64,000 bases of DNA from Dysidea avara (Eukaryota > Porifera > Demospongiae > Dictyoceratida > Dysideidae), in contig NC_089276.1 of the NCBI RefSeq assembly GCF_963678975.1, positions 27,299,555 through 27,363,554 on the forward strand, in the 5' to 3' direction. The number at the start of each line of letters is the position of its first letter. Position 1 is the stretch's first letter. Of the stretch, positions 823 through 63,300 are shown piece after piece. Both the position numbers and the translations under genes were made by a program. The notes beneath the pieces were generated by a model that did no database searches, was not told the origin of the DNA, and was given only the letters and a program-made list of their open reading frames with translations.

Positions 823-3800
823 CGTGCGCTGGTTCACTCAGTAGCAATTATTGTGTTTTGCACAGCTGCAGTGTGTGTGTAGTGTGTGTAGTTTGTGTGT
901 GTGTATGTGCATGCGTGCGTGTGTTGGTGTTTGTATGTGTGTGTGCGTGCGCAGTTTGTGTGTGTATATGTGCATGCGTGCGTGTGTTGGTGTTTGTGTG
1001 TGTGTGTGTATGTGTGTGTAGGTCTGTGTCAGATATGCCAGCATAGTATAGAGCATATAGTTATGCTGGAATATTATGTGGAAGTGTAATAGGTTTTTTC
1101 ATTTAACTAACCAAAATATGCCATTAGTATTAATTACTTTCTTCACTTCTCCAGAGTGCAATATTGCTAACCACAACTTGTGATTCCCATTGACTGCCTG
1201 TACAAAAATACTTTTTTAAAAACTAAAACTTGTTCATACTACCATATATGCAGCCAAAATTTCTTTAGATGTTAGATTTGGTCTTCCTCTCTCAGGAAAT
1301 CTTTGTCTCATTGCATTTCAAAAACCTGTCTTTGAGTTACAGAAGTTTTATAAATAGCTTTTCATGTATTTAATCACTTTGTTTGGCACTGTAATTAACA
1401 AAGCTACTGGTGATAATTTTAGTGCTAATGATAGTTCACCACCATACCGTTCTTGCCACTAGCAGCCTTTCAAGCCAAGCAAAGAATAGCAACAACAGAA
1501 AACAGTGGTCTTATAGTGAATTAAATACCTGGAGCAATGGTGAAGGTGCTGTTTGACCAGTGTACTGTTCCCAAACTTTGATGGTAGTTATTATATAGAG
1601 AAACCAGCAGGCTAACGAAGGTAAAAATAACTGGTAGTGACGCTAGGAATCTACACACTGCTGGAAATTTATCTGACGCTATATAGCTCTTGGATAGCTT
1701 GTGAGTGCCACGCTGTTGATCTAGGCTGCATCGCTGGGCTACCTGTATACAGTACTCTCCTTTCATGCTGTTTCAGTGAATGATACAGGATAGCATTCAC
1801 CTAACATGGCAACAAAGCTAAGATGGCTTCAACTTGATAATCTCACTAATTACTTGTGAATTAGCACTGCAAGTACCGCCAATATCAATGGTAATGTAGT
1901 AGTGATTGAAGAAAATATTGTACTCCAGAAGTCAATTCATAGACCAATTATTAGGGCTGTACCGATACTGATATTGTATCGGTATCGGTACAGATATTAC
2001 TAGTATTGGTATCGGTCAATTGCAGTCTACAATACAGATATTTCACTTGAGTTATATGCACTATTTAACATAGTATTATTACAATGAAAAGCACACTATT
2101 GGCCTAGTGACTTAGTGTTAACTGGTTAATTTCTTAGCCTAGCAGTCCTTACCTAGCATGGGTTGGCCTAGGTTCATCCGGTTCAAATCCCAGGTTGGGT
2201 AAGTTTTTCTTTTCTGAGGGTTTTTGCACCATCTTTTAATGTTGTTTAGTGTTTGATTTTTGTATTGTTTTGACTGAAAAAATAAAGATAAAAACCTTTT
2301 GTAGACAGTCATAAGTACCAACAAATAAAAAGATTAAAAGCATAATTATGAATTGTAGTAATTTAACACAGCCATAGTCATCATCCTACATACTCTTTAT
2401 ATTGTAATGCATATCAGTTTGACTTTTAAGTATTGGCTGTGTATATGGTATCAGTTCATTAGAAAACCTGTATCGGAAATAGACAATAAATATCAGATAT
2501 CAGTATTGGATGTAAAATATGGTATCAGTACAGCCCTACCAATTATGTTGTCACAGTGTTACCACAACATTCCACTGCCTTAAACGAAAAGGCCTGAAAT
2601 ATATCGATACTCCCTAATAGAGCAGTCAGTAGAAACTGCAAACTGCAATTAGGCATTGTACGTAGCTCCTTAGATTGATACTCTCTAATAGAAGAGTCAC
2701 TTTGCAGTGAAATACTCTAATAGAGCATTCACTAATAATAATGTTCCAAGATAATTATAAGAAATGTTGTTCACCTAGGAGGATAATGCAAACATAATGG
2801 GAACACTGAAGAGCATAATAGGTGAATTTTTTGGAAAATTCCTGAAAGAATTTTGAGCAGGCCTATGTGTTGATAATACTTGTGGAAACAGTAGTGTGAA
2901 TAAATAGTTCTTGGTATAAGACAATATGCTAGCTCCACTTTAGTTTACATAATTATATGTTTTATTGTGGTCATGTTTGCTGCAGGTAGTGTGGACATTC
3001 ATCATTTACAAACACTGGATCCACAACTGTATCGGTAAATTGTCTGTTTGTACATACATGGTTTCATAAGTCGCCATTAACAGACTTATTTCAGTAAACA
3101 CTTGAAAGTTCTTGCCACAACAACACATAGACTTCCAGTTTGATCATTAATAGAGCATTCTTTGGTCTCCTTTGGTACCTGCTGTAACTTATTCCAATTA
3201 ACATTATGTTTGGAGTGAAGTCATGTAATATATATATATATATATATATATGTAAGACTTTGACACCTCAGATCAAAGGAATTCCAGAGGATGTATTAGT
3301 ATGTATACCTCTTTACAGGGAGACATCAAAATGTACACCGGTGTACATTGAAATGTATCCCGGGAAAGTGGTTGCACTTCTAAAAGAGCAAGCCACTTTC
3401 ATCAAAGCAAGCATGGCCTTGATGTGGATGAGGTAGTGGTACCACCCTCTGTTTGTTTTATACAAGCTTAGGCCGAAACCAATTGGGGGAATAAATTAAT
3501 GCTCACATGATGACTACCACAAACTAACAAGAAGTACTGAAATGAAGGAATTTCAGTATCCTTGCATGCCATTCTACAAGTTGGGAAATGTTACTGAAAG
3601 GTGTGAACTAGTCTTGCAGTGCATTCACAAGTGTTTCAGCATGTTTTTGAATGCAGACATGTCCACATTATGGACAACACAATTTAATCACTCTATAATG
3701 GGGCTTACCCCTCTAGGTCGTTAGTATACACTGTGATTAGTCTTTACATAATGCAAAAGCATCATAACACTAATTCCCCAAAATTTTCCCCACTTGACAT

Positions 3801-6800
3801 TTTCATAATATCTGTACGACTCGTCCGTTTATTATAGTGACCGTAACTACAGCGTTATTTGCTGCCTAACCATAATTGAATCTTTCAGGCATGCATATAA
3901 AATGAATCCAGTGGTTACACTCGTATTGGCATCAAGGCTATCAGCCTGAACAGAAGTGTTACATATTAGCTGTAACATGGGCATTCGTGATTTGCCTGAT
4001 ATGTATGCCCGCAGCCCTCGGGCTTTGGGCATACATATCAGGCAAATCACTCATTCCCATGTTACAACTATAAAATATGTAATATATAAACCATGGCTAC
4101 AAGATTCACTGAGGCATTTATCACCAGTAAACTTCTGATGACTGAGGAGGAGGGGTGTATATAAGTGCAATACACCAAAGATTCATATAATATATACCAT
4201 GTTTCTAAATTAATCCGCACTACAATACTTACTAACAACTCATATGCACACAAACCAACTTAAAGTATATACTCACACTATAGTTTGGCATAGTAGACAC
4301 ACTGGAAGCGTTCCTCTCGCAATTCAGCTTGCTCACAATGAAGAATCAAATTGATTGTGGGACTTAGTAAACATATCTGTACATCCCCAGGACTTGTCTG
4401 ATCTATCAACAAACATAGGAGCAACGTTACTTGCTGCTACCCATCATCAAAGTCGCGAGGTATGGTTATAAAATGAATCCAGTGGTTGGACTCTTACTGG
4501 CTGGAGTGATTGATCGCCTAGCATGACAAGGACTATTAGCCGAGTTATCTGGGTGATTAGTCATGCTAGCATGGGCGTCGTTCACCTGCCCACGTCGGGC
4601 TATTAGCCCGTAATCGTGACACAGTAATGTGTCATGTAACCTCCCAGGTAAGTATATAAATACTCACCTGTGGGTTTGAGGTGTACAAATGATTGCGGAA
4701 TCTATGCAACACAGGAAGTCACTGGAAACATGAGCTTGTTACATAATTCATCACATTATCAAAGTAGTTGCATCACATGTTTCGGTTTTCGCTTGGCGGT
4801 CTTGTGTTGCAAAGATCACGCAAATGTCTGTATATGCCCTATATTAGGGTTTCCAATGTAAAAATTTGACATCTTCAAAATAATTTGCTAACTGCTGTTA
4901 CATGTTGAACTAACTCTCACTTGAATACAGCTGCAGTGACAATAAATTCCATTACCTTCTTGGGGTAGAAATCGATCAAAATATCTGCAAAATCCGACAT
5001 TACAAGCTGTAACGCTCAGAAGCCTTGATCCTTTATCGCAATACTGGAGTTCAACCTTCTTCTGTGAGTAAACCTTCACCTAAAAGCATTGGTAGTTTCA
5101 TTGGTGGGGTAGGTTTCCTGTCGTTGCATCATTTGAGCATGATTTTGGGCTCCAAAAATGGGTTTTTGTCTACGGACACCAAACGATTGAAAGCTCAAAC
5201 TTCCTCACACCACAGTAGTAATTATCCTTTGACAAAGAAGTCACATACAAACTTTGGTTAAGTTGTGACATCTCTAACCATCTGGGTGAGCGTGATATAG
5301 GGCAAAATTAGCCAAAAATCACACCTTCACTACTTAACTTGTCTGCTCAACTGTTTAAAAATAGATATCTCGGTGTAAAACAACTGTATGATCCATAAAG
5401 TATAACTAATGGTGAAGTTATCGTCACTGCAATTCAGCTACAAATGCACTTAGCCTAGTTCAGTCAGGCTCATGTGACTAGGCTTGGGTGTGGTCAGTAA
5501 TGATATACACTGCCTACTAGGGCTAAAACGAATATTCTAAATGAAAGAGAATGAATATCTTTGGTCAAGAACGAATAATAGAATATTCTATATATAGTGT
5601 AATGCTCTTATACAGTGTACATGTGTTATTTCTTATTATTTGTATTCAATTGTAAAACATCATTAAAATTTGATACAGTAGGCAGCTTTTGAAATGAAGT
5701 AAAAGTGTCTGATGATGTAGCTACTAGAGGTGTACCGATAAGGATTTTTCAGTTGTATTGATATCTGATTAATTTGTACCTAAAAGAGCTGATACTGATT
5801 ATATACCGATTAAATTATTGTATATTCGTAAATCAAATAGAACTACAGGTGTAGCTACTGCATGATGTATATTCTAATGATTTGTAGCATTGAGAAAAGA
5901 GAAGTGATGTAACTTTACTATATTGCACAACTCCCTATGGTGGTGTGGCCTCTATTACACAATCCAGACAATTAGGCACCACAAATATTTTAATACATGT
6001 TCCTTTGTCCGGATTACTCCGTGTTTTGATTAGTTACCAAGATGGCTGTTGTACACAGGTGATCACTTTAGTTTTCCTGTAGTGCAGTTTTTTATTCTTA
6101 AAGTGCAGCTAACAGCTACTGTTCTGGGTAAGAATATTTTAACACTAATAGCAGTACTCTCACACGTCGTCATATGGCTTCTCGTAATTTAGCGTTTTAT
6201 AGAATAGTGTAGAGAGGCTTTCTGTTTGTTTGTAGTGAGCAAAAAGGCTTTTCATAGCTGGCCATGCAAACTAATTGATTCATAGAGCGTTTGTGCCCAT
6301 TATTACTGAATATGGAAGGCATATCGGCAACCGATCTGATCACCCTCGTGATCACCAATCCGATTATTGGTACATCTCTAGTCCAGTGTCTGATGTTGTT
6401 GAAGTTGTAGAGACTGACAAAGATTCCTCATTACTAGTGTCTGCCATCTTTACTGTAATTTCGATGTTTCGAATTCAATAATTCCTTCGAACGAAGTCGA
6501 ATCGAATACGAATTCGAATATTCGGTATATTCGTTTTAGCCCTACTGCCTACATTTATTTGTTTGTTATTACTGGGCAGGCAATATTTGTAATGAGGGAC
6601 AGTTGTCGTGGCACTGCATAAGATATCAAGTGTTTAGATGGCAGAAATCACACGAGCTTAATTGCATTTTCGTTAGCTGCATTAAATTTTATTTTACAAT
6701 TCTTGATGACGATAACCTCACTTCTAGCCATACTTTAGGGATCATACAGTTGTTTTACGTTAAGATTTCTATTTTTAAGCAGTTGAGCAGACAAGTTATG

Positions 6801-13934: not shown

Positions 13935-14765
13935 CAAGACACACGGTAGTGTGTCGTGCGGCCCAAGAAGCCGGCGCGTAACACCCGTGAGTATATTGAC
14001 AGGAAGAAAGAAAACGCAATTTTCGCACCTCCGTAGCTCTGTGCTTCCTTGATGAAACAAGACGATTTTTGCTGTGGACATGCCCCCCAACTGCAGCACT
14101 CCACATTCCAAATTTGAGCGAAATCGCTTCGCGCGTTCCCGAGATATGCGACTTCAAAAATTGGCTCAGTTTCTTCGTTTTTTTTCTTCTTCTTCTTCTT
14201 CTTATTTTTCTTTTTCTTGTCGCACACTTACAAAAACTGCTATAAAACTCGCACGCCATATCCGATTGCCTTGAAATTTGGCACACAGAAGGGGGATATA
14301 AAGGCGCATCTCGGTACCAACTTTGGCTGGAATACGATAAACAGGCAAAGAGTTATGAGCGATTATTCACGAAAATTAACACCAATATGTTGTCACGCCT
14401 ACAGGGTAAACCGCGTATGGGAAGAAGCTGAAAATCGGTGGGTGAATAGGTTAACTATTGAACCTCAAACCTTTTGTGGTTTGAAAGAAATCGAGCTAAA
14501 AACCAGGAAGATACAACGAAAAAACCAACAGTGTGTAACAATTACGCAATCGAGATTAGCTAATAAAAAACGACTGCTTGCCACGCCTACCAGGTAAACC
14601 GCTTGGGGTAATGCTTTGAAAATCGCTGTACAGATGGAGTTATCATCTTAGAAAGGCTCTTCAATGGTGTAGAAGAATCAGACTTAAAACCACGGAGTTA
14701 TAACACGAAATCCAACTTAGTGTAGCAAGTGTGAGATCGAGATACTCTAATAGAGCAGTCATCCT
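13935..14765 (-). mobile_element. Hairpin-ended repeat element (copy A)
   Basis: Begins CAAGACACACGGTAGTGTGTC, an 18-nt hairpin (13938-13955), then CGTGCGGCCCAAGAAGC. About 780 bp of body shared with 54120-54770 and, in reverse, 58945-59576 follows, and it ends with three tandem CTCTAATAGAG modules (14734-14807). On the opposite strand the hairpin is the 3' terminus. A polypyrimidine tract lies at 14186-14215. The overlapping reading frames here are not shared with other copies and I treat them as chance. The tRNA-like head seen in the other two copies is missing; satellite DNA begins in its place. Confidence 0.75.
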
Positions 14766-14807
14766 AATAGAGCAGTCATCCTAATAGAGCAGTCACCCGA
14801 AGAGAAT
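14734..14807 (+). repeat. Tandem CTCTAATAGAG modules (three copies)
   Basis: GATCGAGATACTCTAATAGAG followed by CAGTCATC-CTAATAGAG twice more, spaced 20-21 bp, directly before the satellite array. Confidence 0.9.
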
Positions 14808-17800
14808 TCAAGAGATCAGCTAGAAACAAGTAACCTGTATAGAGATCAGCTACAAACAAGCCACCCTGTAGAGAGATCAGCCACAAACAATTCACCCTGT
14901 AGAGAAATCAGCTAGAAGAAGTTACCTTGTAGGGAATTCATGCAACTATAGAAAGAGATAATTCAGCTAGAAGAAATCACCTTGTAGAGTTCAGCTACAA
15001 AGAAACCACAATGTAGAGAGTTCAGATACAAAGAAACCACCATGTAGAGAATTCGTTTACAAACAAGTCACCCTATAGAAAGATCAGCTAGAAGAAGTTA
15101 CCTCGTAGAGAGTTCAGTTACAAAGAAACCACCATGTAGAGAATTCATTTACAAACTAGTGACCCTGTAGAGACATCAGCTAGAAGAAGTTACCTTGTAA
15201 AGAGTTCAGCTACATAGAAACCATTCTGTAAAGAGCTCAGCTACAAACAAATCACCCTGTAGAGAGATCAGCTAGAAGAAGTTACCTTGTTGATAGTTCA
15301 GCTACAAAGAAACCATCATGTAGAGAGTTCAGCTACAAACAAATCTCCCTGTAGAGAGATCAGCTAGAAGAAGTTACCTTGTAGAGAGTTCAGCTTCAAA
15401 CAAATCACCCTGTAGAAAGATCAGCTACAAACAAATCTCCCTGTAGAGAGATTAGCTAGAAGTTATCTTGTAGAGAGTTCAGCTACAAAGAAACCATCAT
15501 GTAGAGAGTTCAGCTACAAACAAATCTCCCTGTAGAGAGATCAGCTAGAAGAAGTTACCTTGTAGAGAGTTCAGCTTCAAACAAATCACCCTGTAGAAAG
15601 ATCAGCTAGAAGAGGTCACCTTGTAGAGAGTTCAGTTACAAAAAAACCACCATGTAGAGAGCTCAGCTACAAACCAGTGACCTTGTAGAGACTTCAGCTA
15701 GAAGAAGTTACCTTGTAGATAGTTCAGCTACAAAGAAACCATTCTTTAAAGAGCTCAGCTGCAAACAAATCACCTGTAAAGAATTCAGCTACAAATAAAT
15801 CACCCTGTAGAAAGATGAGCTAGAAAAAGTTACCTTGTAGAGAGTTCAGTTACAAAGAAACCACCATGTAGAGAATTCAGCTACAAACTAGTGACCCTGT
15901 AAAGACATCAGCTAGAAGAAGTTACCTTGAGAGAGTTCAGCTACAAAGAAACCATTATTTAAAGAGCTCAGCTGCAAACAAATCACCTATATAGAATTCA
16001 GCTACAAACAAATCACCATGTAGAGAGATCAGCTAGAAGAAGTTAACTTGTAGAGAGTTCAGCTACAAACAAATCACCCTGTATAGAGATCAGCTAGAAG
16101 AAGTTACCTTGTAGAGAGTTCAGCTACAAAGAAACCACCATGTAGAGAGTTCAGCTACAAAGAAATCACCCTGTATAAAATTCTGCCACGAACAAATTGC
16201 CCTGTAGAAAGATCAGTTAGAAGAAGTTACCTTGTAGAGAGTTCAGCTACAAAGAAACCATTCTGTAAACAGCTCAGCTGCAAACAAATCACCTGTACAG
16301 AATTCAGCTACAAACAAATCACCCTGTAGAGAGATCAACTAGAAGAAATTACTTTGTAGAGAGTTCAGCTACAAAGAAACCACCATGTAGAGAGTTCAGC
16401 TGCAAACAAATCACCCTGTAGAAAATACAGCCACAAACAAATTGCCCTGTAGAAAGATCAGTTAGATGAAGTTACCTTTTAGAGAGTTCAGCTACAAAGA
16501 AACCACCCTGTAGAGAGATCAGCTAGAAGAAGTTACCTTGTAGATCGTTCAGCTACAAACAAATCACCCTGTAGAGAGATCAGCTAGAAGAAGTTACCTT
16601 GTAGAGAGTTCAGCTACAAAGAAACCACCATGTAGAGAGTTCAGCTGCAAAGAAATCACCCTGTAGAAAATTCTGCCACAAACAAATTGCCCTGTATAGA
16701 GAGATCAGTTAGAAGAAGTTACCTTTTAGAGAGTTCAGCTACAAAGAAACCATTCTGTAAAGAGCTCAGCTGCAAACAAATCACCTGTACAGAATTCAGC
16801 TACAAACAAATCACCCTGTAGAGAGATCAGCTAGAAGAAATTACCTTGTAGAGAGTGAAGCTACAAACAAATCACCCTATTGAAAAATCAGCTTGTAGAA
16901 GTCACCTTGTAGAAAGTTCAGTTACAAAGAAACCATTCTGTAAAGAGCTCAGCTGCAAACAAATCACCCTGTATGAGAGATCAGCTAGAAGAAGTTAACT
17001 TGTAGAGAGTTCAGCTACAAAGAAACTATCATTTAGAAAGTTCAGCTTCAAACAAATCACCTGTAGAGAGTTCAGCTACAAACAAATCTCCCTGTAGAGA
17101 GATCAGCTAGAAGAAGTTACCTTGTAGAGAGTGAAGCTACAAACAAATCACCCTATTGAAAAATCAGCTAGAAGAAGTCACCTTGTAGAAAGTTCAGTTA
17201 CAAAGAAACCACCATGTAGAGAGTTCAGCTACAAACTAGCCACCTTGTAGAGACATCAGCTAGAAAAGTTACCTTGTAGAGAGTTCAGCTACAAAGAAAC
17301 CATTCTGTAAAGAGCTCAGCTGCAAACAAATCACCTGTACAGAATTCAGCTACAAACAAATCACCCTGTAGAGAGATCAGCTAGAAGAAGTTAACTTGTA
17401 GAGAGTTCAGCTACAAAGAAACCATCATTTAGAAAGTTCAGCTTCAAACAAATCACCTGTAGAGAGTTCAGCTACAAACAAATCTCCCTGTAGAGAGATC
17501 AGCTAGAAGAAGTTACCTTGTAGAGAGTGAAGCTACAAACAAATCACCCTATTGAAAAATCAGCTAGAAGAAGTCACCTTGTAGAAAGTTCAGTTACAAA
17601 GAAACCACCATGTAGAGAGTTCAGCTACAAACTAGCCACCTTGTAGAGACATCAGCTAGAAAAGTTACCTTGTAGAGAGTTCAGCTACAAAGAAACCACC
17701 CTGTAGAGAGATCAGCTAGAAGAAGTTACCTTGTAGATCGTTCAGCTACAAACAAATCACCCTGTAGAGAGATCAGCTAGAAGAAGTTACCTTGTAGAGA

Positions 17801-18712
17801 GTTCAGCTACAAAGAAACCACCATGTAGAGAGTTCAGCTGCAAAGAAATCACCCTGTAGAAAATTCTGCCACAAACAAATTGCCCTGTATAGAGAGATCA
17901 GTTAGAAGAAGTTACCTTTTAGAGAGTTCAGCTACAAAGAAACCATTCTGTAAAGAGCTCAGCTGCAAACAAATCACCTGTACAGAATTCAGCTACAAAC
18001 AAATCACCCTGTAGAGAGATCAGCTAGAAGAAATTACCTTGTAGATAGTTCAGCTACAAACAAATCACGCTGTAGAAAGATCAGTTAGAAGAAGTTACTT
18101 TGTAGAGAGTTCAGCTACAAAGAAACCATTCTGTAAAGAGCTCAGCTGCAAACAAATCACCTGTACAGAATTCAGCTACAAACAAATCACCCTGTAGAGA
18201 GATCAGCTAGAAGAAATTACATTGTAGATAGTTCAGCTACAAACAAATCACGCTGTAGAAAGATCAGTTAGAAGAAGTTACTTTGTAGAGAGTTCAGCTA
18301 CAAAGAAACCATTCTGTAAAGAGCTCAGCTGCAAACAAATCACCTGTACAGAATTCAGCTACAAACAAATCACCCTGTAGAGAGATCAGCTAGAAGAAAT
18401 TACATTGTAGATAGTTCAGCTACAAACAAATCACGCTGTAGAAAGATCAGTTAGAAGAAGTTACTTTGTAGAGAGTTCAGCTACAAAGAAACCATTTTGT
18501 AAAGAGCTCAGCTGCAAACAAATCACCTGTACAGAATTCAGCTACGAACAAATCACCCTGTAGAGAGATCAGCTAGAAGAAGTTACCTTGTAGATAGTTC
18601 AGCTACAAACAAATCTCCCTGTAGAGAGATCAGCTAGAAGAAATTATCTTGTAGAGAGTTCAGCTACAAAGAAATCATCATGTGGAGAGTTCAGCTGCAA
18701 AGAAATCACCAC
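14808..18712 (+). repeat. Satellite array, about 3.9 kb, monomer about 30-31 bp
   Basis: Two alternating monomer types: GTAGAGAGTTCAGCTACAAA-type and GTAGAGAGATCAGCTAGAAG-type, each about 30 bp. Higher-order structure is visible. A six-monomer unit of 183 bp repeats with CACCTGTACAG at 17975, 18158, 18341 and 18524; a block near 16997 recurs 396 bp later; a block at 16501 recurs 1193 bp later at 17694. The same satellite occurs in reverse at 61610-62370. Confidence 0.97.
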
Positions 18713-18926: not shown

Positions 18927-19306
18927 CCCAAAGCTGGCCATAGGCCGGCTTTGGGGTATACAAATACAAAAAGAAATGAAATCTAATCCAAAACAGCCAA
19001 GCTGTAAAAACAGTGTGCGGCCCTCAGAAAGGCTATGGTGAAAAAAGATGTGAAATCCAAGGTGGCGGCCAAGAAATGGCTGTGATGGTAGGTTAATGGT
19101 AAAAATTTTAATAACGACAATTCAGGTGAATTTTTGTGCCGCTTCACAAAATTTACCTGAATTGTCATTATTAAAATTTTTACCATTAACCTACCATCAC
19201 AGCCATTTCTTGGCCGCCACCTTGGATTTCATTTCACATCTTTTTTCACCATAGCCTTTCTGAGGGCCGCACACTGTTTTTACAGCTTGGCTGTTTTGGA
19301 TTAGAT
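18927..19306. mobile_element. Foldback element, AACAGCCAAGCTGT family, copy 1
   Basis: A palindrome at 18981-19306 with arms starting ATCTAATCCAAAACAGCC and ending in its exact complement. It is preceded, after a conserved 24-bp linker (TATACAAATACAAAAAGAAA), by a hairpin at 18927-18956 (CCAAAGCTGGCC, loop, GGCCGGCTTTGG). Other copies lie at 55275-55562, 58545-58765 (partial) and 61068-61453. Sequence within the arms, such as GGTGGCGGCCAAGAAATGGC, is conserved across copies. Confidence 0.9.
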
Positions 19307-27750: not shown

Positions 27751-30700
27751 TTTGTGTGTGGTACATATACAGTAGGTAATTTAATTTTGCAGTCCTATCA
27801 TACAGTACAGTGATATTGTATATTAGGGTGCTTATACTTTCTCATAAAAGAATTTACCACAAACCAGCCTCACAATGCCTTCATGATACTGTTATACGTA
27901 GTAATGGTTACATATGAAGTCCAGTAATGCATTCAGTATGATCTGAAACACTTCCAGTATGTTGTTACATTTTATTTTTAAAAGTGGAATTTTCTACTGA
28001 CTGACTGATGGATGGGCAGACCAACCAACCAACTGACCAACTGACCGACCAACCTACCCAGCTGATTGACTGACAGACCAACTGAGTTACTTCGCTTCAC
28101 CATCTTACTTCACTTACTGACTTACTTTGTGATACTTATATTTTACTCACTTTGTATTGCTAGATGTCTCTTTAGCCCAACAGGTGCCTTTTGGCATACT
28201 GCAGTATATACAATGCATGCACAATTGCAATTGTCTATGTCCTCCGGATTCTTTGTGTCTGATTTCTCTTTGCTGGCAGTGCAAGGTGTTGATTCACAGA
28301 AGCATGTGATTGCTTCCTGTATTTGTAATGGTCATCATCCATATTTTTCATAGTGACTGGATTGATTGCAGAAGCACTTCTTGTACTGTTCTTTGTTTGT
28401 AAAGCTGTGTAGCAGGTTGAGTATAACTAATTGAAGCATAATAGCCACTTCACTTTCTGTAATTATTCGTTGGAGTCAGCATTACATTAATATTTTTGAT
28501 GCGGTAGATTGAGATAATAATAAGTCACTCTCTAGAGTTCCTATGGATACATATGCTTGAAACTGACAAGGAGACAATGACCGCCTGGCAGACTCCCGTA
28601 TAAGCATTCAAGCATTAATCGAATGGCTGCATGTTTGAGGCTGCCCAGATCCAGTCATGGATTTTTCTCCTTTCTCCACCTTTTCAAACATGCTTTATCT
28701 AACAACTTTAAACAGGCTGTAGGACCAGGTGTCCTACAGACCTTCAGCACTTGTGCTGTAAAGTCTTAATAAAGGAATAAATTGCGTGGGTTCACTAGTC
28801 ATAATTACATTACAAAAAAGTAAACAAGCAAACATGTACAAGTATAAGCATTTTAAGTTTATAGGGATCATAGAAGTGAAACAAGGAAGGTTGTCTACTA
28901 ACACCTTTAGATATATTGGTGGACAATCTATCCCTAATTCAGTCATGGGTATAGACTGATCATGAAGTAGGGATAGGTGATCTTTAGGTATAGGTGATCT
29001 CCCTTGTTTTACTGGTGATCTCCCTTGTTTTACTATGTCTTTTATCAATTCTTAATTATTCCTTGTACTTGTACCATGAAATTTTCGTAGCACAACTTTT
29101 GTAATTTCAATTAAGGTACAAATGAAAATTCATAAAAAATAATTTTGTGAAAGAGATAATGTCACTACTTTATTGAATACATATCATCTAAATGGAAAAA
29201 TCATGCTGCTGAAACTAGTCGATAACATTGCTACCCTATTTGTAGTGCTGATTGTAATTGATTGAAGTTTACAGAGGGCCATCTACTATTGCACAGCTAG
29301 ACCCCTTGTTCTCTACCGTGGCACTTATCTGTTACTATGTAAGTGCCATATTAGAGCTAATGTGGTGGAAATAAAACAGTCTCATCGTGTAAGACACTGC
29401 AAAACTATTGGCTGACTATTATTGACATGGGAAGGTAGTGTAACATTTTTGGTGATGATGAAGTCACCTTAAGAAGATAAAATACTTGAACAAATGAGCT
29501 GATCCAAGCAGCAGAGAACACTCATACAGGCACAAAATTAAGGCTCAATTGAACATACTTTACTGTCTTGCTTACTAAACCGTAAATATTTGCAGAACAA
29601 AATCATAATTGTTTGGCTATTATGGAACCTACGAAAAATTATATCCACTAAAATAATGTGCTAGTTACATGGTATAGGTGTAGCCAATGCTTGTCCTGTT
29701 GTTGTTATACTGAATGGTACATGGTGCATGTCATGAAACTTGTGTGAGTGTTCTCTCTACTTGTAAAATCTCTAGCTAACTGTATTGCAATTGGTGATCC
29801 ACTTTTGTGTGTATGTGTTTTTGTGCTATGTACATGTTAGATAAATGATCTGAAATTTGTATTATTAAGGCTTTATATAGCACAAGTGCTGAAGGTCTGT
29901 AGGACACTTGGTCCTACAGTCTGTTTAAAGTGGTTACATGTTTTCCATGATATCTCTCAGTGTAATGCTGTAAGCAATGTCTAATGTAAATTTTAATTCT
30001 GTTTAATGTTGTTATTTTGCTTTATCCAAGAGTTGCAGATGTGATGTGATGTGATGTATGTGTTTCTTAATATAATCAGCTGCTATGAAACCTCCTGAGG
30101 TGATCCAGTTAGTGGACACAATTGGATTATTATTAGAACAGTGTGGCCCAGATGACTTTGTCATTGATGAAGACAATGAACTTTTTGGTCAACCCTACTT
30201 GATGTATGAACTCTGTGACCCTCTGAAATCCAGAGAGCAGTTGCAGTCATGTTGTCTATGTAAGGTGTCCAGTTGGGAACTGGCCACTGCTATAGTGAAG
30301 ATCATGTAAGCAATAAAGTGGTTGTGCATTGCTATTCATAGAACATTTTCTGTAGTAACCATGGTGATATACTCAAACCACTAAGCAGGCTGTGTTATCA
30401 GCTTTTAAAGAAGCCATATTCTTATCACACTAGCTGGTGAGTTGGGTGAAGACATGGTGACTTTATAATATTGTTATATATATATATATAGTTTATTTCA
30501 ACTGCTGTCACTTCACCCAGTTATATTGAAGCATCTTTGGAGGAGCATTACATCAATGCAGTCAGTTGGCATATTGTAAGCAAACCAATTGTAATTTTTC
30601 ACGTTACACTGTCCGAATCATCATGTATAATAACTATGTTGTTCATTCATATATTTTTAACATTAATAGTGGTTCAGCAAGTGTGTTGAAGCAGCTGGCT

Positions 30701-34898: not shown

Positions 34899-35258
34899 CA
34901 GGGCCGCCCAGAGAAATTAAGGGGCCCAGGGCAAAGAGTTGAAGTGGGGCCCTTGACCCAAGTTGTAAGGTGAAGACCAAAAAAAAAAAAAAAAAAAAAA
35001 AAAAGGTCACAACGTGCTGGCAATGACAATAACTACCCATCACCAACCATATCTCCTTATCTATAAGCTTGCTACACTGCTCCTCTGAAGAATACTGTGA
35101 CTGCTCTATTAGAGTATTTAGATCTGACTGCTCTATTAGAGTATATCGATCTTTTAAACAGGTATTCAGGAGGCCCTTCATGAGGCCTCCTGGGGCCCCT
35201 TTCAGGCTGGGGCCCCGGGGCAAAATTCCCCAGTTCCCCCCCCCTGTGGGCGGCCCTG
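34899..35258. mobile_element. hAT-like MITE, 360 bp, CAGGGCCGCCC ends, perfect 8-bp target duplication
   Basis: Ends CAGGGCCGCCC and complement; ATTGTGAC flanks both sides (34891-34898 and 35259-35266). The interior has a GACC-A26-GGTC hairpin (34975-35008), then two CTCTAATAGAG modules (35089-35154). The same interior, with different ends, occurs at 46411-46755 and 57108-57413. Confidence 0.9.
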
Positions 35259-43871: not shown

Positions 43872-43874
43872 TAT

Positions 43875-45815: not shown

Positions 45816-48800
45816 GTGTGTCTAATATCATGGATACTCATCAATACCATAACTGTTCATATCACAAGAGGGGACCAAGATAGTAACATCAATCAAAGTG
45901 AGAATGGAGCATTATCACTAAATATTTCACAATTCTCTTGTAACATTAGTTGTTGGACGACACCTTACAAGTGTATCTCAACCAGATCAAGAATATTTAC
46001 ATGTGGAGTTGTTGTCCAGTAAACAGCGAGCTACAGTGATTATTGATGGGAGCAGTGTATGTTATATGTTGTGTCATGTTACAACTGTTGGTTTCCTCCC
46101 ATCCCCCTCAGAGTCGTCAAAGTGTCATACATTGTGCCTTACTACTATGGCCTAATATGGTTACATAATTCGTCTGCTCAAATAGTTATTCTTTATTAGT
46201 ACTATTGCTGCTGCTGCTCCAGCTCTTGCCTGTGAAAACAGCAGTTCTAGATGAGGCAGTCTTGGGCAACTAGAAGTTGTGTAATGGTTTGGCTAATAGT
46301 GAGGGGCTATTCTTTTAGAATGAAGTGTTGCTTATATCTTGTTTATAACTGTTCTCTCAATGTGAAGTGTTAGGGGAGATCACTTATAGCATAGGGTGAT
46401 CACCTGTGGTCAGCGGCGGAGGAAGTAGTTGATATGAGGGGGGGCTGGGCTAACCCAGACTTATTTCTATAGTTTGGTAAGGTGAGACCAAAAAAAAAAA
46501 GAAAAAAAAAAAAGGTCACAACCAACTGACAAGAGCTTTCCACCTCACCAGCTACCATTTCTAGCTGATAAACTACATAAAAATTCTTACATAGCTCGCT
46601 ACACACTGACTACTTTATTAGAGTGACTGCTCTATTAGAGTATCTCGATCTTTATCACGGTTTTCAGCCCCACTCCAAGAAAGATAATTTCGTTGTGATA
46701 TCATTCTGAGGGGGGGGGCTTTAGCCCCCTAGCCCCCCCCTTTCCGCCGCCTATGCCTGTGGTAATTAAAACCGCTTAGCCTGAACCACTTGCAATGGGG
46801 GTGGGGGGACACCTATGGCATAGCAGTTTGCGTGATGCTATATTTCTACCATTACTGTAGGTCTTTCATATTACTGGTGGAGATGAGGCTCGTGGTATGT
46901 ATGTGGTAGTAGTGAACCAAGCTACTGTAAGTGTTTAATATTTGTGATTAAAAAATTGTATTGAGTTTAGTGTTTGCAAAAATATAAGCTGAGTTTTAAT
47001 ATTTCATGTTACTACACGTATTTGGCTGCCTAAATGTTCTATTTAAGTGTAATTTTTTGAGGTTTACATACCTACGTGTGCTGAATCAAGTGTGCCTGCT
47101 ATCTCACAAAGTAAGTTACTACTCACTTAGGGAATTGTAATGGCAAAAAGAAGATTTGATACTTACACCCCTGGAGGCTCTGAGGAGTTAGATGTATTTC
47201 TGAAATCTATTGCAGTTGGACGATACATGTTCTTTGTTATCAAGGTACACTCATGTATATTTCATTTGCTTGCAATTGATTTGTATTTCAAGGATGAGGC
47301 AACACTGTCACTCACAGACACTGTCAGATCCACACTACATTCACTAGGTAGTCAGTTAGCAGGTTAGTATATGGTAATATGATGGAATGTATTGTAATTG
47401 GTTGTTGTTATTGTAGAGTCACTTCGATGGCGTGACATGTGGGTGTTTGCAACTAAGAAACAAGGTTGGTATATGATTCATATATATTGTGCAATACTTA
47501 GCGTTATCAGTTACCCAATGGAGATGTGCGTGTAGCTTTAATGCATACGTTTAGGGACTTAATGATGTGGTAGTTTTAGTAGTTGGAAAATACTTGAGAA
47601 TGAAATGAGTACTGCTTGGTTGGTATGTAACTTGGTGATTAATTTCTTTCCAGTAACTTTTCACTATGGCTACTAAACAAAGGCTGATGACTATGGTGAT
47701 CAGCATTTGCACATTTCTTGGAGTCAGTTTCTGTGCTACATCCTCCTTGCTTAGCATTTCACACACAAATTTAAGTAAGGTTATAGGACTATCGTTTCAT
47801 CACCATTGCACTACATAGGATGGTTGGAATTGTGGATGAACTATAGTTGTGTATTTGTGACATGGCCTATACCAGCCATGAGGGATCAGGTAGTTTTATG
47901 AAACTGGTCATACATAATTTAATGTGTATGTTGACTTTTTCAGAGGGTGAACTAACTGACAAACCACCAAGTCAGTGTCAGAGTGGTGACAAACAATTTG
48001 AACTAAACAAGTAGCTAACTAACACTAAATCAAGAAGAAATTATTTACTAGTAGAATATAATGTTTTCAATTTTACCATCAATGATGTCCTGCGCATACT
48101 ACTTATAATATACTGTGGGGATTGTTGTTCTATACTTGTATATACCGTAGGAGCAGTACTTGGAGAAGATCATTCCAAATCCCCAGGCTTGTCAGAATGG
48201 GGAGAAGACACTTCACTCACTATCACTATTCCACTGGATGTTATCCAACCTGTTTGTAACTGGCCTAACACAAATGAGAATAAACTGAGGCAGAAATTTT
48301 GCTCACAGTATGAGGGATACAAAGAACTCTGTGACTGTAAGTGCATGGTGTGCATTAATTTTATTGTGTAAGTGACTGGATTTTAAGAAAACAATCCAAA
48401 AACATATTCAAAGTTGGCCTGTACATAAGGTTGCATAGTATCTACTTAGAAAAGGGTTCACTTTGTTATTGTTTGCTCACATGATCTCTTTACAGGTTCT
48501 GATCCCATTCCGATCACCATAAAGAGTGACTCAGTATGTTACCATAGTAACAGTGTTTACATGATGTACCATCATGACCACTAGTTACCGAACAACAACA
48601 TTCATGATGTACCTGTAGGGATTATTGCTAGTAACCGCCCACAGTATTTATTCAAGTAAGTGCATAAATGCGTGAAGACATGTAGTTTGTATAATTTAAT
48701 TTTGTAGGAGTTTACGTATACTATTATCAACAGCTGGTGGTGAGTGATCACAGAGTTAATTTATTTGAAAACATGTTAATGTGATTATAATGTCTAAAAA

Positions 48801-54119: not shown

Positions 54120-54905
54120 TCAAGACACACGGTAGTGTGTCGTGCGGCCCAAGAAGCTGGCGCGCCACACCGTGAGTATATTTACAGGAAGAAAGAAAAT
54201 GTAATTTTCACACCTTTGTAGCTCCATGATCCCTTATCCAATTGGAACTAGTTTCACTACAGAGGTGCCCGCCAGGTAGGCCACACTACATACCAAATTT
54301 GAAGGAAATCACCCCAGCCGTTTCTGAGATATGAGTGGCTAAAGTTTCATTTTAATTTCTTCATTTTTTATCTTTGCCATAGGGGGCTACAGGGGCTTTG
54401 ATTTCTTTTCGCACACTTTGAAAAAATTGCTATAAAACACAAACTTGTACCTCCATTGTATCGATATTTGGCAGAAGTAAAGAGCGTATAAAGGTGCATC
54501 CGCGTACCAAGTTTGCTATGAATCTGATAAATATCCAAGGAGTTATGAGCGTTTATTCACGTAAAGAAAGATGAAACGTTTGTCATGGCTACGGAGTAAA
54601 CTGAGTAGAGGAATAACTTGAAAATTCATGTGTACATATAGGCTGATCATCTTAGGAGTGCCTTTTGGTGGTTAGAACAGCAACAGACTTACAGCTACAA
54701 AGTTATAAAGCAAACACCGAGCAAGTGTAAAATCGCGGGATCGAGATACTCTAATAGAGTAGTCACTGGGGGAAAAAAGGTGCAAAAAAAATGTTGAAAA
54801 AAACCCAACTGATCATGACCAGAGTTCGAACCAAGGACCTCCATACTTAACACTTGCATCCTTAACCACTGAACCACTGCTATCTCGGCTGATCACTTCA
54901 CTTAA
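54120..54905 (-). mobile_element. Hairpin-ended, tRNA-headed repeat element (copy B)
   Basis: Read on the minus strand: a tRNA-like head (A-box-like AGTGGTTCAGTGGTTAAGG near 54893-54875 and B box GGTTCGAACTC near 54833-54823), a T-rich stretch, one CTCTAATAGAG module (54739-54766), about 600 bp of body, and a 3' terminal hairpin GACACAC-loop-GTGTGTC (54124-54141) ending CTTG. The architecture fits a SINE with an unusually long body. No frame is conserved between copies. Confidence 0.75.
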
Positions 54906-55274
54906 TTTCTACCTTATAAATGAATATTCTAGCTTAATAAGTAAAACTGATCTACCAATAGAAACTAGAACATTCTATGTGTGTTCTATTAGATGATTTC
55001 AGCGAAAGCAAAAATGTGCGCTCTATTAGAGCATTAGCACCATACTATTGTTGCAACACTTTGAGGCTCAGTCTAGTAGCTATTTCATCAAATCAGAGCC
55101 ATTTTCGTATTGATCAGTGGTATATTTGTAGTATTAACTTAGTTTCGCCCCCAGGCGGTCTGCGAGCAGACTAGTATGACCGACTCATGCCAATCATCAT
55201 AATCATCACAATAAGTGCTATGCTAGCAAAACTTGTGATACAACAGCCTGGAAATCATATCCCAGTAAAAACAT

Positions 55275-57107: not shown

Positions 57108-57413
57108 CAGGGGCGGATCCAGGGGGGGTTCAAAGGGTTCCATGGAACCCCCCTTTTGAAAGAACCTCTCTTACTCGAGATACTCTAATAGAGCAGTCAA
57201 GATCGAGATACTCTATTAATAGAGCAGTCACAGTATTCTTAAGAGGAGCAGTGTAGCAGGCTACGTGTGGAGTTATAAATAAGAAAATATAGTTGGTGAG
57301 GGACAGCTATTGTCAGCAGGTGATGACCTTTTTTTTGGTCTTCGACTCATAGCTAGGCTGAAGTTGCAATTCCAGAGTGTAACCCCCCTTTTAAAAGTCT
57401 GGATCTGCCCCTG
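57108..57413. mobile_element. MITE with CAGGGGCGGATCCAG ends
   Basis: CAGGGGCGGATCCAG and CTGGATCTGCCCCTG form the ends. The interior has two CTCTAATAGAG modules (57173-57230) and, in reverse, the GACC-T8-GGTC hairpin (57325-57340). The flanks share no clear duplication. Confidence 0.8.
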
Positions 57414-58824: not shown

Positions 58825-59576
58825 TTAAGCGAGGTGGTCAGCCAAGTGGTTCAGTGGTTAAGGATGCTGGTGCTAGGTATGGAGGTCCCTGGCTTGAACT
58901 CTGGTAAGCTATTTTAGACATTTTTGTGCACCTTTTTACCCCACGATGAATGCTCTATTAGAGTATTTCTATCCCGTGATTTTTAACTTTGCTTTATAAC
59001 TTTGTAGCTGTAACTCTATTGCTAATTAAACTATCAAAAAGCACTGCTATGGTGATCAGCCTATGTACACACCAATTTTCAAGTTATTCCCATATTTGGT
59101 TTACCCTGTAGCCTTGACAAAAGTTAGATCTTTTTTTATATGAATAAACGCTCATAACTCCTTGGATGTTTATCAAATTCACAGCAAAGTTGGTATGTGA
59201 ATTCACCTTTATGTGCTCTTCATTTGTGCCAAAGATCAATGCAACCAAATTACGCATTTACATTTTATAGAAATTTTTGCAAGGTGTCTCGAAGCCCTGG
59301 TAGCCCCCTATGGCATAAGATGAAAAAATTGAAGAAACTAATTGAAACTTTATGGCTAAATAAAAGAATATAAAACACTGAATGCCCATGGCTGTTGTGA
59401 ATTTAATCAAATTTGCTGTGTGGCCTATCCTACCTGGTGGACAATTATAATGGGCTTTGGAGAAGGGGCCATGAAGCATGCATGCGTGAAAAAACTGTTT
59501 TCTTTCATCTTGTATACTCATGATGTGGCGTGCTGGCTTTCATGGCCCACCGCACAATGCACTATTGTGTGTCTTG
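58825..59576 (+). mobile_element. Hairpin-ended, tRNA-headed repeat element (copy C)
   Basis: A tRNA-like head 58828-58905 (GTGGTTCAGTGGTTAAGG and GGCTTGAACTCTGG), one CTCTATTAGAG module (58949-58960), the same body as copies A and B, and a decayed terminal hairpin at 59556-59573 followed by TTGAT. Confidence 0.8.
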
Positions 59577-59749
59577 ATGTACATGCCCTTTAAAACTTCA
59601 TTGTACATGTATAGACCATACCTTACTTGTGGGCAACTTGTATGCTTTATTTGGGTTATGTGATTGGGAGCTTAAATTCAATGTTTTATCCATTACATAC
59701 TATTCTGTTGACTGATTTACTGTACATGCAATAAATTGTATATACATAG

Positions 59750-60051
59750 GTACAACTAGACCAACTCTAAAGAAGCTTCAAAATGCTTGGGTTATTACTA
59801 ATGTGGGCTCCAAGTGGTATCAATTGGGAATACAGTTGTTGGATGAGGATCAAGCACCACAGTTGAAAGTTATTAGAGCAAATAATGATGATGTGACAGG
59901 ATGTTGCACTGCAATGTTTGACTATTGGTTACAAACTCATCCCAATGCCAGTTGGTATGAGCTAGTGGCAGCACTGAGGGCACCAGGTGTTGAACTGAAT
60001 GGAGTAGCTGCATCTGTGGAAAGAACATTTCATGGTTTGTCAACACAATAA
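59750..60051 (+). CDS. Death-domain-containing protein, terminal exon
   Basis: After a TACATAG acceptor, a frame of 100 residues runs to TAA. It begins TTRPTLKKLQNAW and contains WYQLGIQLLDEDQAPQLKVIRANN, a central MFDYWLQTHPNASWYELVAALRAPGVELNGVAASVERTF and a short tail. The spacing of W, LG..L, FxxWL and SWxxLVxAL matches the six-helix Death domain, a homotypic adaptor fold of apoptosis and innate signalling. No upstream exon is recognisable in the preceding 3 kb, which are filled by the repeat at 58825-59576 and AT-rich DNA, so partner domains are unknown. AATAAA follows at about 60119-60124 (TAATAAAAC). It may be the last exon of a gene whose other exons lie further upstream, or an orphan. 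Confidence 0.7.
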
Positions 60052-60406
60052 TTGTACCTGAACACATAAATATGCATTATAGAAGTATCAAAGTATATAC
60101 GCATCAAATGTAGATCTGTAATAAAACTATGTGAATGGCTGAACAAAAAATGACATTTCAATTATTTTATCATTAATTTTATTCAAAATCTTAGTTACAT
60201 TTATGCACCTACATGCGTATTTTGCAATCCCTGGTTGTAAAAAATAATGTCCTTATACTGCTTGAAGGTTCTTAGTTTACTAATTTGTTAAGCTGCTTTA
60301 CTGTAGTTGTGCCCAGTTATACTGAGAGTAAAATGTTTAAGTATATGGAACATAATTGTTTTACTAAGTTTTAAACTCTCAGTAAAACATCAGCGAGTGT
60401 AGGTTT

Positions 60407-60839
60407 TAGGGCTGAGCGATATTGCCATTTTAGTATCACGATCAATACTGAAGCCACTATTCACGATACTGAATAGTTCACGATACTTATGAATAAGTCA
60501 ATCATAGCTGCTGCTACATACTGTATTGCTCAGCATTCCTGCAGGAAATCCTTATAGGTGATAGTAAACTAGCCACTATCATTCTTGTTTACAGTAACAG
60601 TTATTGTAACACATGCTTTGAGGTTATGTTGTGGTGTTCACACCTCTCTGCAGGGGAAACCAGGTGGGTGGACTTTACCACTTACAAGGATTCTTAGCCT
60701 AGTACTGCATAACAAATGGATTTTTAATGACAGTAATGTACAGGCCTGGTATCACGATAGTTAATAACAAAATATCGCGATATTGATACTGTCAAAATAT
60801 CGCAATATATCGTTAAAACGGTAGTATCGCTCAGCCCTA
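60407..60839. mobile_element. hAT-like MITE, 433 bp, perfect 8-bp target duplication
   Basis: Ends TAGGGCTGAGCGATA and complement; GTAGGTTT flanks at 60399-60406 and 60840-60847. The surrounding repeat also exists without this insertion at 36228-36370, which shows the empty site. Confidence 0.93.
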
Positions 60840-61067
60840 GTAGGTTTACTGAAAAACTACTAAAATAACAAACAATTAACTGTTCCATATACTGAGGATA
60901 TACCACTCTAGTAAACAAAGAAATTTCAAGCAGTGTTATTGGTTGTATCCATAGTAATGATTTGGTAATTTTGCATTTTTTTGTTTGTTTATTGTTTATT
61001 AACATGCACAATCAACCTTTTCATTTTATACCCCTTATTGTTCAGGTGACATCACATGCTAAATACC

Positions 61068-61453
61068 ATCTAAACCAAAACAGCCAAGCTGTAAAAAAAG
61101 AGTGCGGCCCCCAAAAAGGCTAGGATGAAAAAGATATGAAATCCAAGGTGGCGGCCAAGAAATGGCTGTGATGGTAGGTTAATGGCAAAAATTTTAATTA
61201 CGACAATTCAGGTGAATTTGCATTGCCTCCTCCACTAGGATTCGGCACTAAATTCACCGAATTGTTGTAATTAAATTGTTTGCTATTAACCTACCATCAC
61301 AGCCATTTCTTGGCCGCCACCTTGGATTTCACATCTTTTTTCATCCTGGCCTTTTTTGGGACTGCACTCTTTTTTTACAGCTTGGCTGTTTTGGTTTAGA
61401 TATCACTTCTCTTTGTATTGCAAGCCGCAAAGCCAGCCATTAACTGGCTTTGG
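61068..61453. mobile_element. Foldback element, AACAGCC family, copy 3
   Basis: A palindrome at 61068-61401 with ends ATCTAAACCAAAACAGCC and complement. The external hairpin is on the right here: CAAAGCCAG ... CTGGCTTTG (61428-61453), across a 26-bp linker that matches copies 1 and 2 in reverse. Confidence 0.9.
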
Positions 61454-61609
61454 TGCTTCCTTTTGACTTGTTTATTTTTTCTTTTCTGCAGGAATATTGG
61501 AACAAAGGAAGAAATGTTGTTAACAGTTTTTTGTCTGATTAATAATATTTGTATATTTAACAATGAAAGATGATTTTGTTTCCAGCACATATTTCTACAG
61601 AGTGATTTG

Positions 61610-62370
61610 TTTGTAGCTGATCCCTATAAGGTAACTTGTATCCAGCTGATATCTCTACAGGGTGATGTAGTTGTAGCTGAACTCTCTAAAGGGTGATTTG
61701 TTTGTAGCTGAACTCTCTACTGGATGGTTTCTTTGTAGCTGAACTCTCTACAATGTAACTTCTTCTAGCTGAACTCTCTACAATGTAACTTATTGTAGCT
61801 GATCTCTCTACAAGGTGATTTCTTCTAGCTGATCTCTCTACAATGTAACTTCTTGTAGCTGATCTCTCTACAAGGTGATCCTTCTAGCTGATCTCTCTAC
61901 AGGATGACTGGAACTCTCTACAGGGTGATTTGTTTGCAGCTGAAATCTCTACATGGTAGTTTCTTTGTAACTGACTTGTCTGTAAGGTGATGTCTTGTAG
62001 CTGATCTCTCTACTGGATGACTTGTTTCTAGCTGATCTCTCTATAGAGTTATAACTTTCTCTATAGAGTTATAACATGTTTGTATAGCTGAACTCTTTAC
62101 AGAGTGGCTTGTCTGATTGATTGCTGAACTCTCCAGCTACACGGTGACTTGTTTGTACTACAGAGTGACTTGTTTGTAGCTGAACTCTCTACAGAGTGAC
62201 TTATACTCGTAGCTGAACATTGTATAAAGTAACTTGTTTGTAGCTGATCCAGATGAACTCTCTACTGGATAGCATTTTTGTAGCTGAATCCTCTACGCAG
62301 TGACTTGTTTGTAGCTGAATTCTCTACAGAGTGACTTGTTGTAGCTGAACTCTCTACAGAATAACTTGCA
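61610..62370 (-). repeat. Second satellite array, inverted relative to 14808-18712
   Basis: Units of GTAGCTGAACTCTCTACAG and CTAGCTGATCTCTCTACAA type with GGTGATTTGTTT or GTAACTTCTT spacers, about 30 bp each. It is the reverse complement of the 15-18 kb satellite, but shorter and more diverged. The LINE fragment starts directly after it. Confidence 0.95.
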
Positions 62371-62374
62371 ATGT

Positions 62375-63229
62375 AATGGAATGAGCATCATGACTACATT
62401 CTAAAGAAAGCCTATAAGACTCTGGGACTTGTACGTAGAACCTTTTGTAAAGCCATTGTGCCTTCGGTTACGCTCAAACTATATATATCCTTAGTAAGAT
62501 CGCAGCTCCTATACTGTGCACCAGTGCGGCGACCTCATCTCTTAAAAGACATCTCCAAAATTGAACAACTTCAACGTAGGGCAACTAAATATATTTTACA
62601 AGACTTCTCCTCAGACTACAAAACACGGCTGAAAAAACTCAATTTGCTTCCATTAATGTACATCTTTGAAATATCAGACATAATCTTTTTTGTCAACTCT
62701 CTGAAACATCCCACTCCAAGCTTCAATATCAACCTCTACATTTCATTCTCCCATAGTACTACAAGATCCAATTCAGTCAAGCTACACCACAACATATCCT
62801 TTACTAATAAAGAGCGTCATTTTTATTTCAACCGAATCTGTCGCCTTTGGAATTCCCTACCAATCATTGATATAAGTTTGCCTATAGAAACCATCAAAAG
62901 ACGCATCAAATCTTTTCTCTGGAATCATTTTATCACAAACTTCAATTCTACTGACCCACACAAATATCACTATCTCTGTCCGTGTGGTAACTGTGTCAGC
63001 AATCATCTTGTCATGAACTTTGATCTCTTGTAGTTACATACAAATTGATTTATAATTAAATAAATAAGTAACTTACTGTAGTTAAGTAATTAATTTTTGT
63101 AACATACTCAGGCCACTAGCACAGGTTGCTAGTGGACCCTCAGCATGGACTAATATTGTTTTCATGAATGTATAACCACTGTATCTGTATGTAGTTGTGC
63201 CCATGCTGAAAAGCCTTATAAATAAATAA
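62375..63229 (+). pseudogene. LINE ORF2 3' part and tail
   Basis: From about 62385 the frame reads DYILKKAYKTLGLVRRTF, then SLVRSQLLYCAPVRRP, IEQLQRRATKYIL, FLWNHFITNF and CPCGNC to a stop at 63031-63033. This is the post-RT region of a non-LTR retrotransposon ORF2, open for over 200 codons, so a young 5'-truncated copy. The 3' tail has GCTAGTGGACCCTCAGC and ends in AATAAATAAT. No polymerase catalytic motif is present, so it cannot move on its own. Confidence 0.9.
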
Positions 63230-63244
63230 TCGAGTAAGTTATAA

Positions 63245-63300
63245 ACGTAGCTGAATGCTCTATTAGGGTGACTGTTCTATTAGAGTATCTCGATCTCCCA
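63245..63300 (-). repeat. Two CTCTATTAGAG modules
   Basis: GCTCTATTAGGGTGACTGTTCTATTAGAGTATCTCGATC: two units in tandem, reverse orientation, just past the LINE tail. Confidence 0.85.

Follow-up and report, generated by a model that had tools for sequence, protein, structure and literature searches.

A short DNA module recurs in many otherwise unrelated repeats of the sponge Dysidea avara. We describe it from a stretch of 64,000 nucleotides (C5:27299555-27363554 of the 550.8-Mb assembly; hereafter the window) and from genome-wide counts that cover the whole assembly. The module is built of an optional leader, GATCGAGATA, followed by 17-bp units on the same strand that are often 21 bp apart. 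It is reused throughout the genome in unrelated contexts, has a sharp right edge, forms arrays with a preferred direction and a constrained geometry, and is a family trait in three repeat families. The best single account of it, to which we give a probability of about one half, is a recognised, arrayed DNA site common to unrelated, mostly non-autonomous elements. The initial annotation of the window had left the choice between a selected site and a module spread by its own mechanism; we favour a recognised site, in which the binding of a protein is inferred, and not autonomous spread.

Abundance of the module

The exact 17-mer CTCTAATAGAGCAGTCA occurs 32,707 times genome-wide (16,301 and 16,406 by strand), whereas the same letters read backwards occur on neither strand (0 + 0). 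With up to 2 mismatches the 21-mer is found 47,037 times (23,503 + 23,534), against 1 + 6 for its backward control. Within the window, the 21-mer with up to 3 mismatches has 8 matches where 0 are expected, and the 11-mer CTCTAATAGAG with at most 1 mismatch has 24, the palindrome being counted on both strands, where 1.2 are expected. An unbiased sample of 261 kb, made up of the window and 20 stretches of 10 kb picked regardless of the module (L numbers below denote stretches or copies taken from the genome), holds 79 units with up to 3 mismatches; shuffled cores gave 0-3 (30 shuffles) and the reversed core 1. The units form 54 arrays, with 85 units once weaker neighbours are included. The initial annotation had placed the module at about twelve loci in the window and had proposed a genome-wide count against controls; every listed place was recovered, those at 3145 and 55015-55031 being weak, and the counts exceed their controls on both scales. 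Outside eukaryotes, the exact 17-mer has 7 occurrences in the prokaryote and 2 in the viral collection, our own chance estimate for prokaryotes being about 30. Rfam and ARAGORN returned no matches on the window. Four module strings were found in published text only in 5 papers, of unrelated subject by title, presumably as primers, and no description of the module was found in the literature searched, mostly at title and abstract level.

Anatomy of the module

The leader marks the start of an array: GATCGAG, with up to 2 mismatches, is present at 32 of 75 first or only units and at 1 of 31 downstream units. Neighbouring units within 60 bp lie on the same strand in 30 cases and on opposite strands in 7, and four neighbours are offset by 6 bp, the shift at which the palindrome overlaps itself. 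We take the leader to resemble the B box of RNA polymerase III (pol III) promoters, with T in place of the usual last C.

The core had been described as an 11-bp palindrome. The palindrome is present, but the conserved unit is asymmetric, and the palindrome is only part of it and often imperfect. In the unbiased set CTCTAATAGA followed by G or A occurs 47 times, and in 40 of these CAGTCA comes next, allowing 1 mismatch. Of the two exact forms of the unit that are most frequent, one ends the palindrome in AGAG (19 units) and the other in AGAA (11 units), which breaks the symmetry. As the last palindrome base may thus be G or A, conservation does not act to preserve a perfect palindrome. At L012:8666-8750 a module and an inverted copy form a tight palindrome that extends into the flanks (AGAAAA...TTTTCT).

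The module might instead act in RNA, through a reverse-strand hairpin (UGCUCU-AUU-AGAGUA) in the transcripts of carriers or, with its length of about 28 nt, as a small-RNA target. In 99 non-anchored units most stem changes preserve G-U pairing of the reverse strand (56, vs 14 of the forward type), and the module with F12-type flanks (F labels were coined here for carrier families) folds better than its shuffled versions do (z -2.75, and -3.12 for the form with two units). We nevertheless regard an RNA element as improbable: pair-restoring double changes are few and the counts are not independent between families, the bare module folds unremarkably on both strands (z -0.86 and -0.03), and carriers that are miniature inverted-repeat transposable elements (MITEs) need no transcript of their own.

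The edges of the unit were measured as information content in non-redundant contexts only (25 of 55, 39 of 88 and 48 of 91 in the separate tests). When only ATACTCTAATAG is selected, the unselected AGCAGTCA retains 0.74-1.95 bits (25 of 55 contexts), and beyond GTCA the information falls at once to 0.35, 0.18 and 0.07 in the same 25 contexts. The left edge is gradual, because downstream units lack the leader.

Units had been reported in tandem at about 20 or 30 bp. The tandem arrangement is borne out, and the spacing is sharper than that: among 30 non-redundant neighbour pairs (out of 110) the step is 21 bp in 12, 17 bp in six, 25 bp in four, 31-32 bp in four, and 20, 27, 28 and 29 bp in one each. 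The twelve 4-bp spacers at the 21-bp step comprise ten different sequences, 11 of the twelve ending in A. Such differing spacers at a constant 21 bp argue against the copying of whole arrays; a fixed distance combined with a free spacer is what one would predict for a binding array but not for copied blocks. The module thus shows two marks of an element-borne protein-binding array, a sharp motif edge (on the right only) and a constrained geometry.

A module common to unrelated repeats

If all copies descended from one ancestral element they should align over hundreds of bases, the outcome that the initial annotation had named as fatal to its claim. The copies do not align in this way. The 68 exact copies compared (68 of at least 100 listed places, numbers 1-48 and 54-73 of the list, all on the + strand of contig 1, a set whose family shares are not genome-wide and which has too few members of families with diverged modules) give 18 clusters by their 60-bp left flanks and 13 by 200 bp. 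When the units are masked, the 54 unbiased arrays group into 32 clusters by left flank, 24 by right flank and 21 by both, and the two largest joint clusters contain 20 and 8 arrays. Two places with a module 19-mer in common (18 places) have alike flanks in 46 of 152 cases (13 on both sides) and no likeness in the other 106, whereas control pairs sharing ordinary exact 19-mers have alike flanks in 293 of 300 (258 on both sides) and none in 7; neighbouring units were left unmasked, which works against this difference. The module is therefore not one ancestral element but is common to unrelated ones.

Among words at five or more dispersed places, this behaviour was specific to the module in the 261-kb sample. 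Of 556 15-mers that passed a complexity filter and occur at 5 or more dispersed places (with no more than 10 places per word), 22 stand in contexts that are mostly unrelated, every one of them a piece of the module; four settings of the test gave 21-29 of 548, again all module pieces. The module is hence the only word at five or more dispersed places in the sample that is common to mostly unrelated repeats. If 4 places suffice, six further words in three groups behave likewise. The best of them is a transposon end, CAGGGGCGGATCCAG, and such a result is to be expected of a recognised site in this kind of test. That the carriers differ in kind was likewise foreseen: they include hAT-like MITEs (F3 and F8), the satellite-bearing F1, and F12, F17 and F18.

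Conservation within families

Copies of F12, F17 and F18 were retrieved by their left flank alone and scored for the module as a 17-mer with up to 4 mismatches. It is present in 19 of 20, 13 of 20 and 9 of 10 copies, respectively, and so is mostly built into these families. The expectation that the core would be better conserved than its flanks held in one family of the three. In F12, at sites outside CpG and homopolymers, the 27-bp module has 10 changes in 484 against 234 in 4,566 in the flanks outside the query (P = 0.0016); in F17 and F18 the module does not stand out.

Several results weigh against a recognised site. The low rate in F12 may partly reflect nearness to the sampling query. 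In F17 the 20-bp bins of the module have rates of 0.036 and 0.105, compared with 0.007-0.176 on the left (inside the query) and 0.089-0.136 on the right, and one F17 subfamily has a changed core; the array bins of F18 range over 0.034-0.209, its right flank over 0.095-0.204. Among paralogues aligned by masked BLAST, the identity of the module is below that of the flanks (0.88 vs 0.948 in 57 pairs with exact-copy queries; 0.775 vs 0.853 in 4 pairs). Identity between family consensuses (27/27 in the module) stems in part from the choice of exact copies, from which the families were mainly built and which inflates it, with a shuffled background of up to 0.67. When the palindrome alone is selected, CAGTCA retains just 0.34-0.84 bits. 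The 17- and 25-bp steps are off helical phase, and a phasing test gave R of about 0.5 at all periods from 9.5 to 11.5 bp, 10.5 bp not being singled out, so that helical phasing of the units is a suggestion. Finally, the 17-bp step of F1 resembles plain tandem duplication (1-5 units).

Some of these points have a counterpart. Fully unbiased paralogue pairs go in the opposite direction, with module against flank identities of 1.000 vs 0.954 (6 pairs) and 0.900 vs 0.838 (2 pairs). The low identity in the masked alignments may stem from mis-registered tandem units, and our conclusions do not draw on that comparison. Since excess conservation of the module is not consistent across F12, F17 and F18, constraint, if any, would act between families and on active lineages, not on every dead copy.

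Spread of the module

The initial annotation had allowed for spread of the module by a mechanism of its own, as would hold if the 27-bp unit were a mini-element that inserts itself by an enzyme or by templated repair. A leader with an A-rich left side in many contexts, the sharp right edge, and a pair of paralogues with and without the module array in L011 are in keeping with such an element. The module-less paralogue of L011, however, is the only one in the sample and is old and imprecise. Copies with distinct left contexts (57 of 115 kept) have no target duplications at the module edges, the mean longest match being 6.53 vs 6.65 in controls. Both testable copies that seemed to stand in single contexts, L036 (F17) and L088 (F18), belong to families with 40 or more scored matches each, their own place included. 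With the module built into its families as described above, autonomous spread has little support and is quite improbable.

A related view would read the leader as the 3' end of a long or short interspersed element (LINE or SINE) in reverse, with variable 5' truncation leaving arrays. It would account for a leader confined to the leftmost unit and for unrelated left flanks. The same 57 copies, though, give it no target-site duplications, and in F1, F12, F17 and F18 the sequence immediately left of the leader belongs to the same element, so that the leader is no element end there. We consider this about as improbable as self-insertion.

Mosaics hinged at the module do exist. F1 and F12 are alike on its left, where two BLAST alignments, both at 72%, cover 225 bp (E 1e-24) and 137 bp (E 5e-11), the second of them extending to the module; on its right they agree at 46 of 77 positions, which is background level. 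In two of 10 F18 copies the right side switches at the module, within the leader in L146 and behind CAGTCA in L147, and one of 20 F17 copies (L132) diverges in the leader. Compared pairwise, 119 arrays give 99 pairs alike on the left only and 325 on the right only, vs 416 on both sides. An origin may also be traceable. The F1 copy in the window has an internal tandem duplication of about 187 bp, whose unit A (14496..14565, +) aligns to 14683-14752 (70%, E 0.001); ATCGAGATTAGCTAATA, at 14549-14565 within unit A, lies in register with the module of unit B. As this duplication pairs the module with ATCGAGATTAGCTAATA, F1/F12 may be the birthplace of the module.

These mosaics would fit a homology patch without function, in which a short repeat of old date, with a possible birth in F1/F12, was spread to several abundant elements by nesting and filler replacement and then became the sole homology at which unrelated repeats recombine. 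The one-sided pairs, the F18 and F17 copies that change at the module and the F1 duplication in register with it all accord with a patch. It leaves unexplained the constant 21-bp geometry with varying spacers and the sharp edge of the unit. Homology reaches to within 20 bp of the module in only 54 of 251 clear right-only and 46 of 96 clear left-only pairs, and the module shows no significant excess of breakpoints (21 inside and 94 outside, expected share 12%, P = 0.06, the events not being independent). The patch is unlikely in our judgement, although it is the most credible of the rival origins.

A proposed role and its relation to known systems

In the recognised-site account, the leader GATCGAGATA with one or more units CTCTAATAGARCAGTCA would be a standard internal part of many elements. 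Neighbouring units would be occupied next to one another by a DNA-binding protein that belongs either to the host or to an element, an arrangement that the 21-bp step of two helix turns with a free spacer would fit. Retaining or acquiring the site would help a lineage to amplify or to be tolerated, and the site would pass between elements by ordinary repeat exchange, that is by internal replacement, nested insertion or recombination at the module. More speculatively, and with doubt outweighing belief, the site may serve as a passport, a sequence of about 27 bp that most of the successful non-autonomous lineages would have to carry. A single host factor, protein or small RNA, would then license amplification or tolerance, and transposons, satellite-bearing elements and other repeats would have converged on the site or borrowed it.

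The module resembles both the conserved domains of SINEs and binding sites borne by elements, yet it spans element types. Sites of zinc-finger proteins are found inside elements, such as the Su(Hw) site array in gypsy and the CTCF sites in rodent B2 SINEs. Those are single families with proven binding, whereas here the families are many and binding is a proposal. The ISX element of Drosophila disperses dosage-compensation sites, according to PMC4384637; both cases are of a short site multiplied by elements, but ISX is one family and here many unrelated families take part, with recognition proposed. The V domain, one of the highly conserved domains (HCDs) of SINEs, is common to SINEs of differing origin and has been carried into the MER6 MITE, in the account that PMC6887750 gives of it. 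As with HCDs, a conserved stretch is here common to otherwise unrelated element families (68 copies in 18 left-flank clusters). In that account (PMC6887750) the V domain has a length of about 120 bp and is widespread in animals, in contrast to the present unit of 18-27 bp in tandem arrays in one genome. HCDs also lie in pol III-type SINEs, whereas F3 and F8 are MITEs, other carriers are satellite-bearing and further repeats, and a tRNA-like part is seen in F12 only, by eye. The function of HCDs is debated in the same source between module or tail exchange and a regulatory role (PMC6887750). If the module is a recognition site, a single factor may decide which mobile elements do well throughout the genome, and its target sequence would already be in hand; this would allow a direct test in the long debate on the persistence of conserved domains within rapidly evolving mobile elements. 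Sponge mitochondrial DNA has repetitive hairpin-forming elements, as described in PMC2800124; these too are short, have inverted symmetry and occur at many places, but they are hairpin-based, whereas the module forms asymmetric direct arrays in nuclear DNA.

Carrier families and their sites in the window

F3 and F8 are hAT-like MITEs. The window copy of F3 (345 bp, 46411..46755, -; reverse-strand coordinates 17246-17590) has 8-bp duplications, CCTGTGGT, on both sides and contains a leader and two units at 17 bp (46607..46650, -). Duplications of 8 bp outside the ends CATAGGCGGCGG...CCGCCGCTG are also found in L027 and in 6 of 8 contig-1 copies, two of which share one duplication and are probably one duplicated insertion. 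F8 (360 bp, 34899..35258, -; reverse-strand coordinates 28743-29102) is flanked in the window by 8-bp duplications, ATTGTGAC, which the L026 copy lacks; random joins matched in 7 of 473 cases. Its two tandem 27-bp leader-plus-unit copies (35098..35151, -) compare with one in the L026 paralogue. The same test found 8-bp duplications in 0 of 10 F2 copies (one match outside the known ends was discarded), in 0 of 6 of the F2b/F10 group, and in neither the F9 window copy nor L075. The F9 copy, with ends GGGGCGGATCC...GGATCTGCCCC, has two leader-plus-unit copies 31 bp apart (57173..57230, +).

The inner cores of F2, F3, F8, F9 and F10 are related and close with a GACC-T(n)-GGTC piece, and in L075 little beyond this piece and the units remains. 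The likeness of F2 and F2b to the other inner cores rests on BLAST, because several consensus identities for pairs that include F2 or F2b (F2 vs F2b not among them) are 0.54-0.73, near the shuffled background. GACC-T(n)-GGTC followed by TTCAAC or similar recurs in several MITE families, also without the module (L075:350-385, L002:2600-2640, window:8200-8250).

The hAT-like carriers raise the possibility, put forward in the initial annotation, of a subterminal site bound by the transposase of one transposon superfamily. The 8-bp duplications of F3 and F8 and a palindromic element in L020 with the module in both arms speak for it. The module is, however, internal in F3 and F8, neither terminal nor subterminal, and it is also found in F1, F12, F17 and F18, where no such ends are seen; in F17 and F18 the element continues for 140 bp or more to the left of the module. 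None of the five hAT transposase loci has the module in the first 400 bp on the downstream side of the dimerisation domain (5-7 mismatches at best), although these loci are perhaps not the partners of F3 and F8. A transposase site is unlikely for most carriers and is the least probable reading of all.

Four matches to the hAT dimerisation domain have identical scores and lie each in a 678-codon frame (C3:39863382, C2:19683156, C4:47772601 and C11:8982287), which suggests recent activity; the list of hAT matches holds many further long frames. The L020 stretch also has a VDE lipocalin domain in a reading frame at 4454-5329 (Pfam E 5.5e-31).

In F1 a 31-bp satellite comes straight after the module. 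The first window copy has a leader and three units at 17 bp (14735..14795, +) adjoining the satellite array (14811..18710, +; tandem repeat finder). A second copy has a leader and two units at 17 bp (63252..63295, -). There the initial annotation saw a LINE border; LINE-like sequence is present, by eye, but stands between the F1 module and its satellite (61594-62368, F1-type). It contains a 218-codon frame (62377-63030), a putative LINE reverse-transcriptase end as judged by eye, in which Pfam had no match. F12 is found twice, each time with a leader and one unit, at 54739..54765 (+) and 58947..58973 (-). Near the former, by eye, is a tRNA-like stretch on the other strand, where ARAGORN calls none.

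The window has five further sites. A decayed leader with one unit lies at 2602..2628 (+; 17-mer 2612-2628, 1 mismatch), followed by a decayed unit at 2673..2699 (+; 17-mer 2683-2699, 2 mismatches) and, 32 bp after it, by a unit without leader at 2712..2731 (+; 17-mer 2715-2731, 1 mismatch). The unit at 3145..3161 (+) is weak and doubtful, with 4 mismatches to the 17-mer, and 55015..55031 (-) is a palindrome without CAGTCA, with 3 mismatches.

Further observations

Beside the F1 satellite, the window holds a 326-bp near-perfect hairpin element (18981-19306; 94% inverted repeat) with relatives in several sampled stretches. A single frame of 3,333 codons, open at both ends, fills L016:2-10000 and has no Pfam match at E 0.001. 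Ig domains were found in the sampled stretches.

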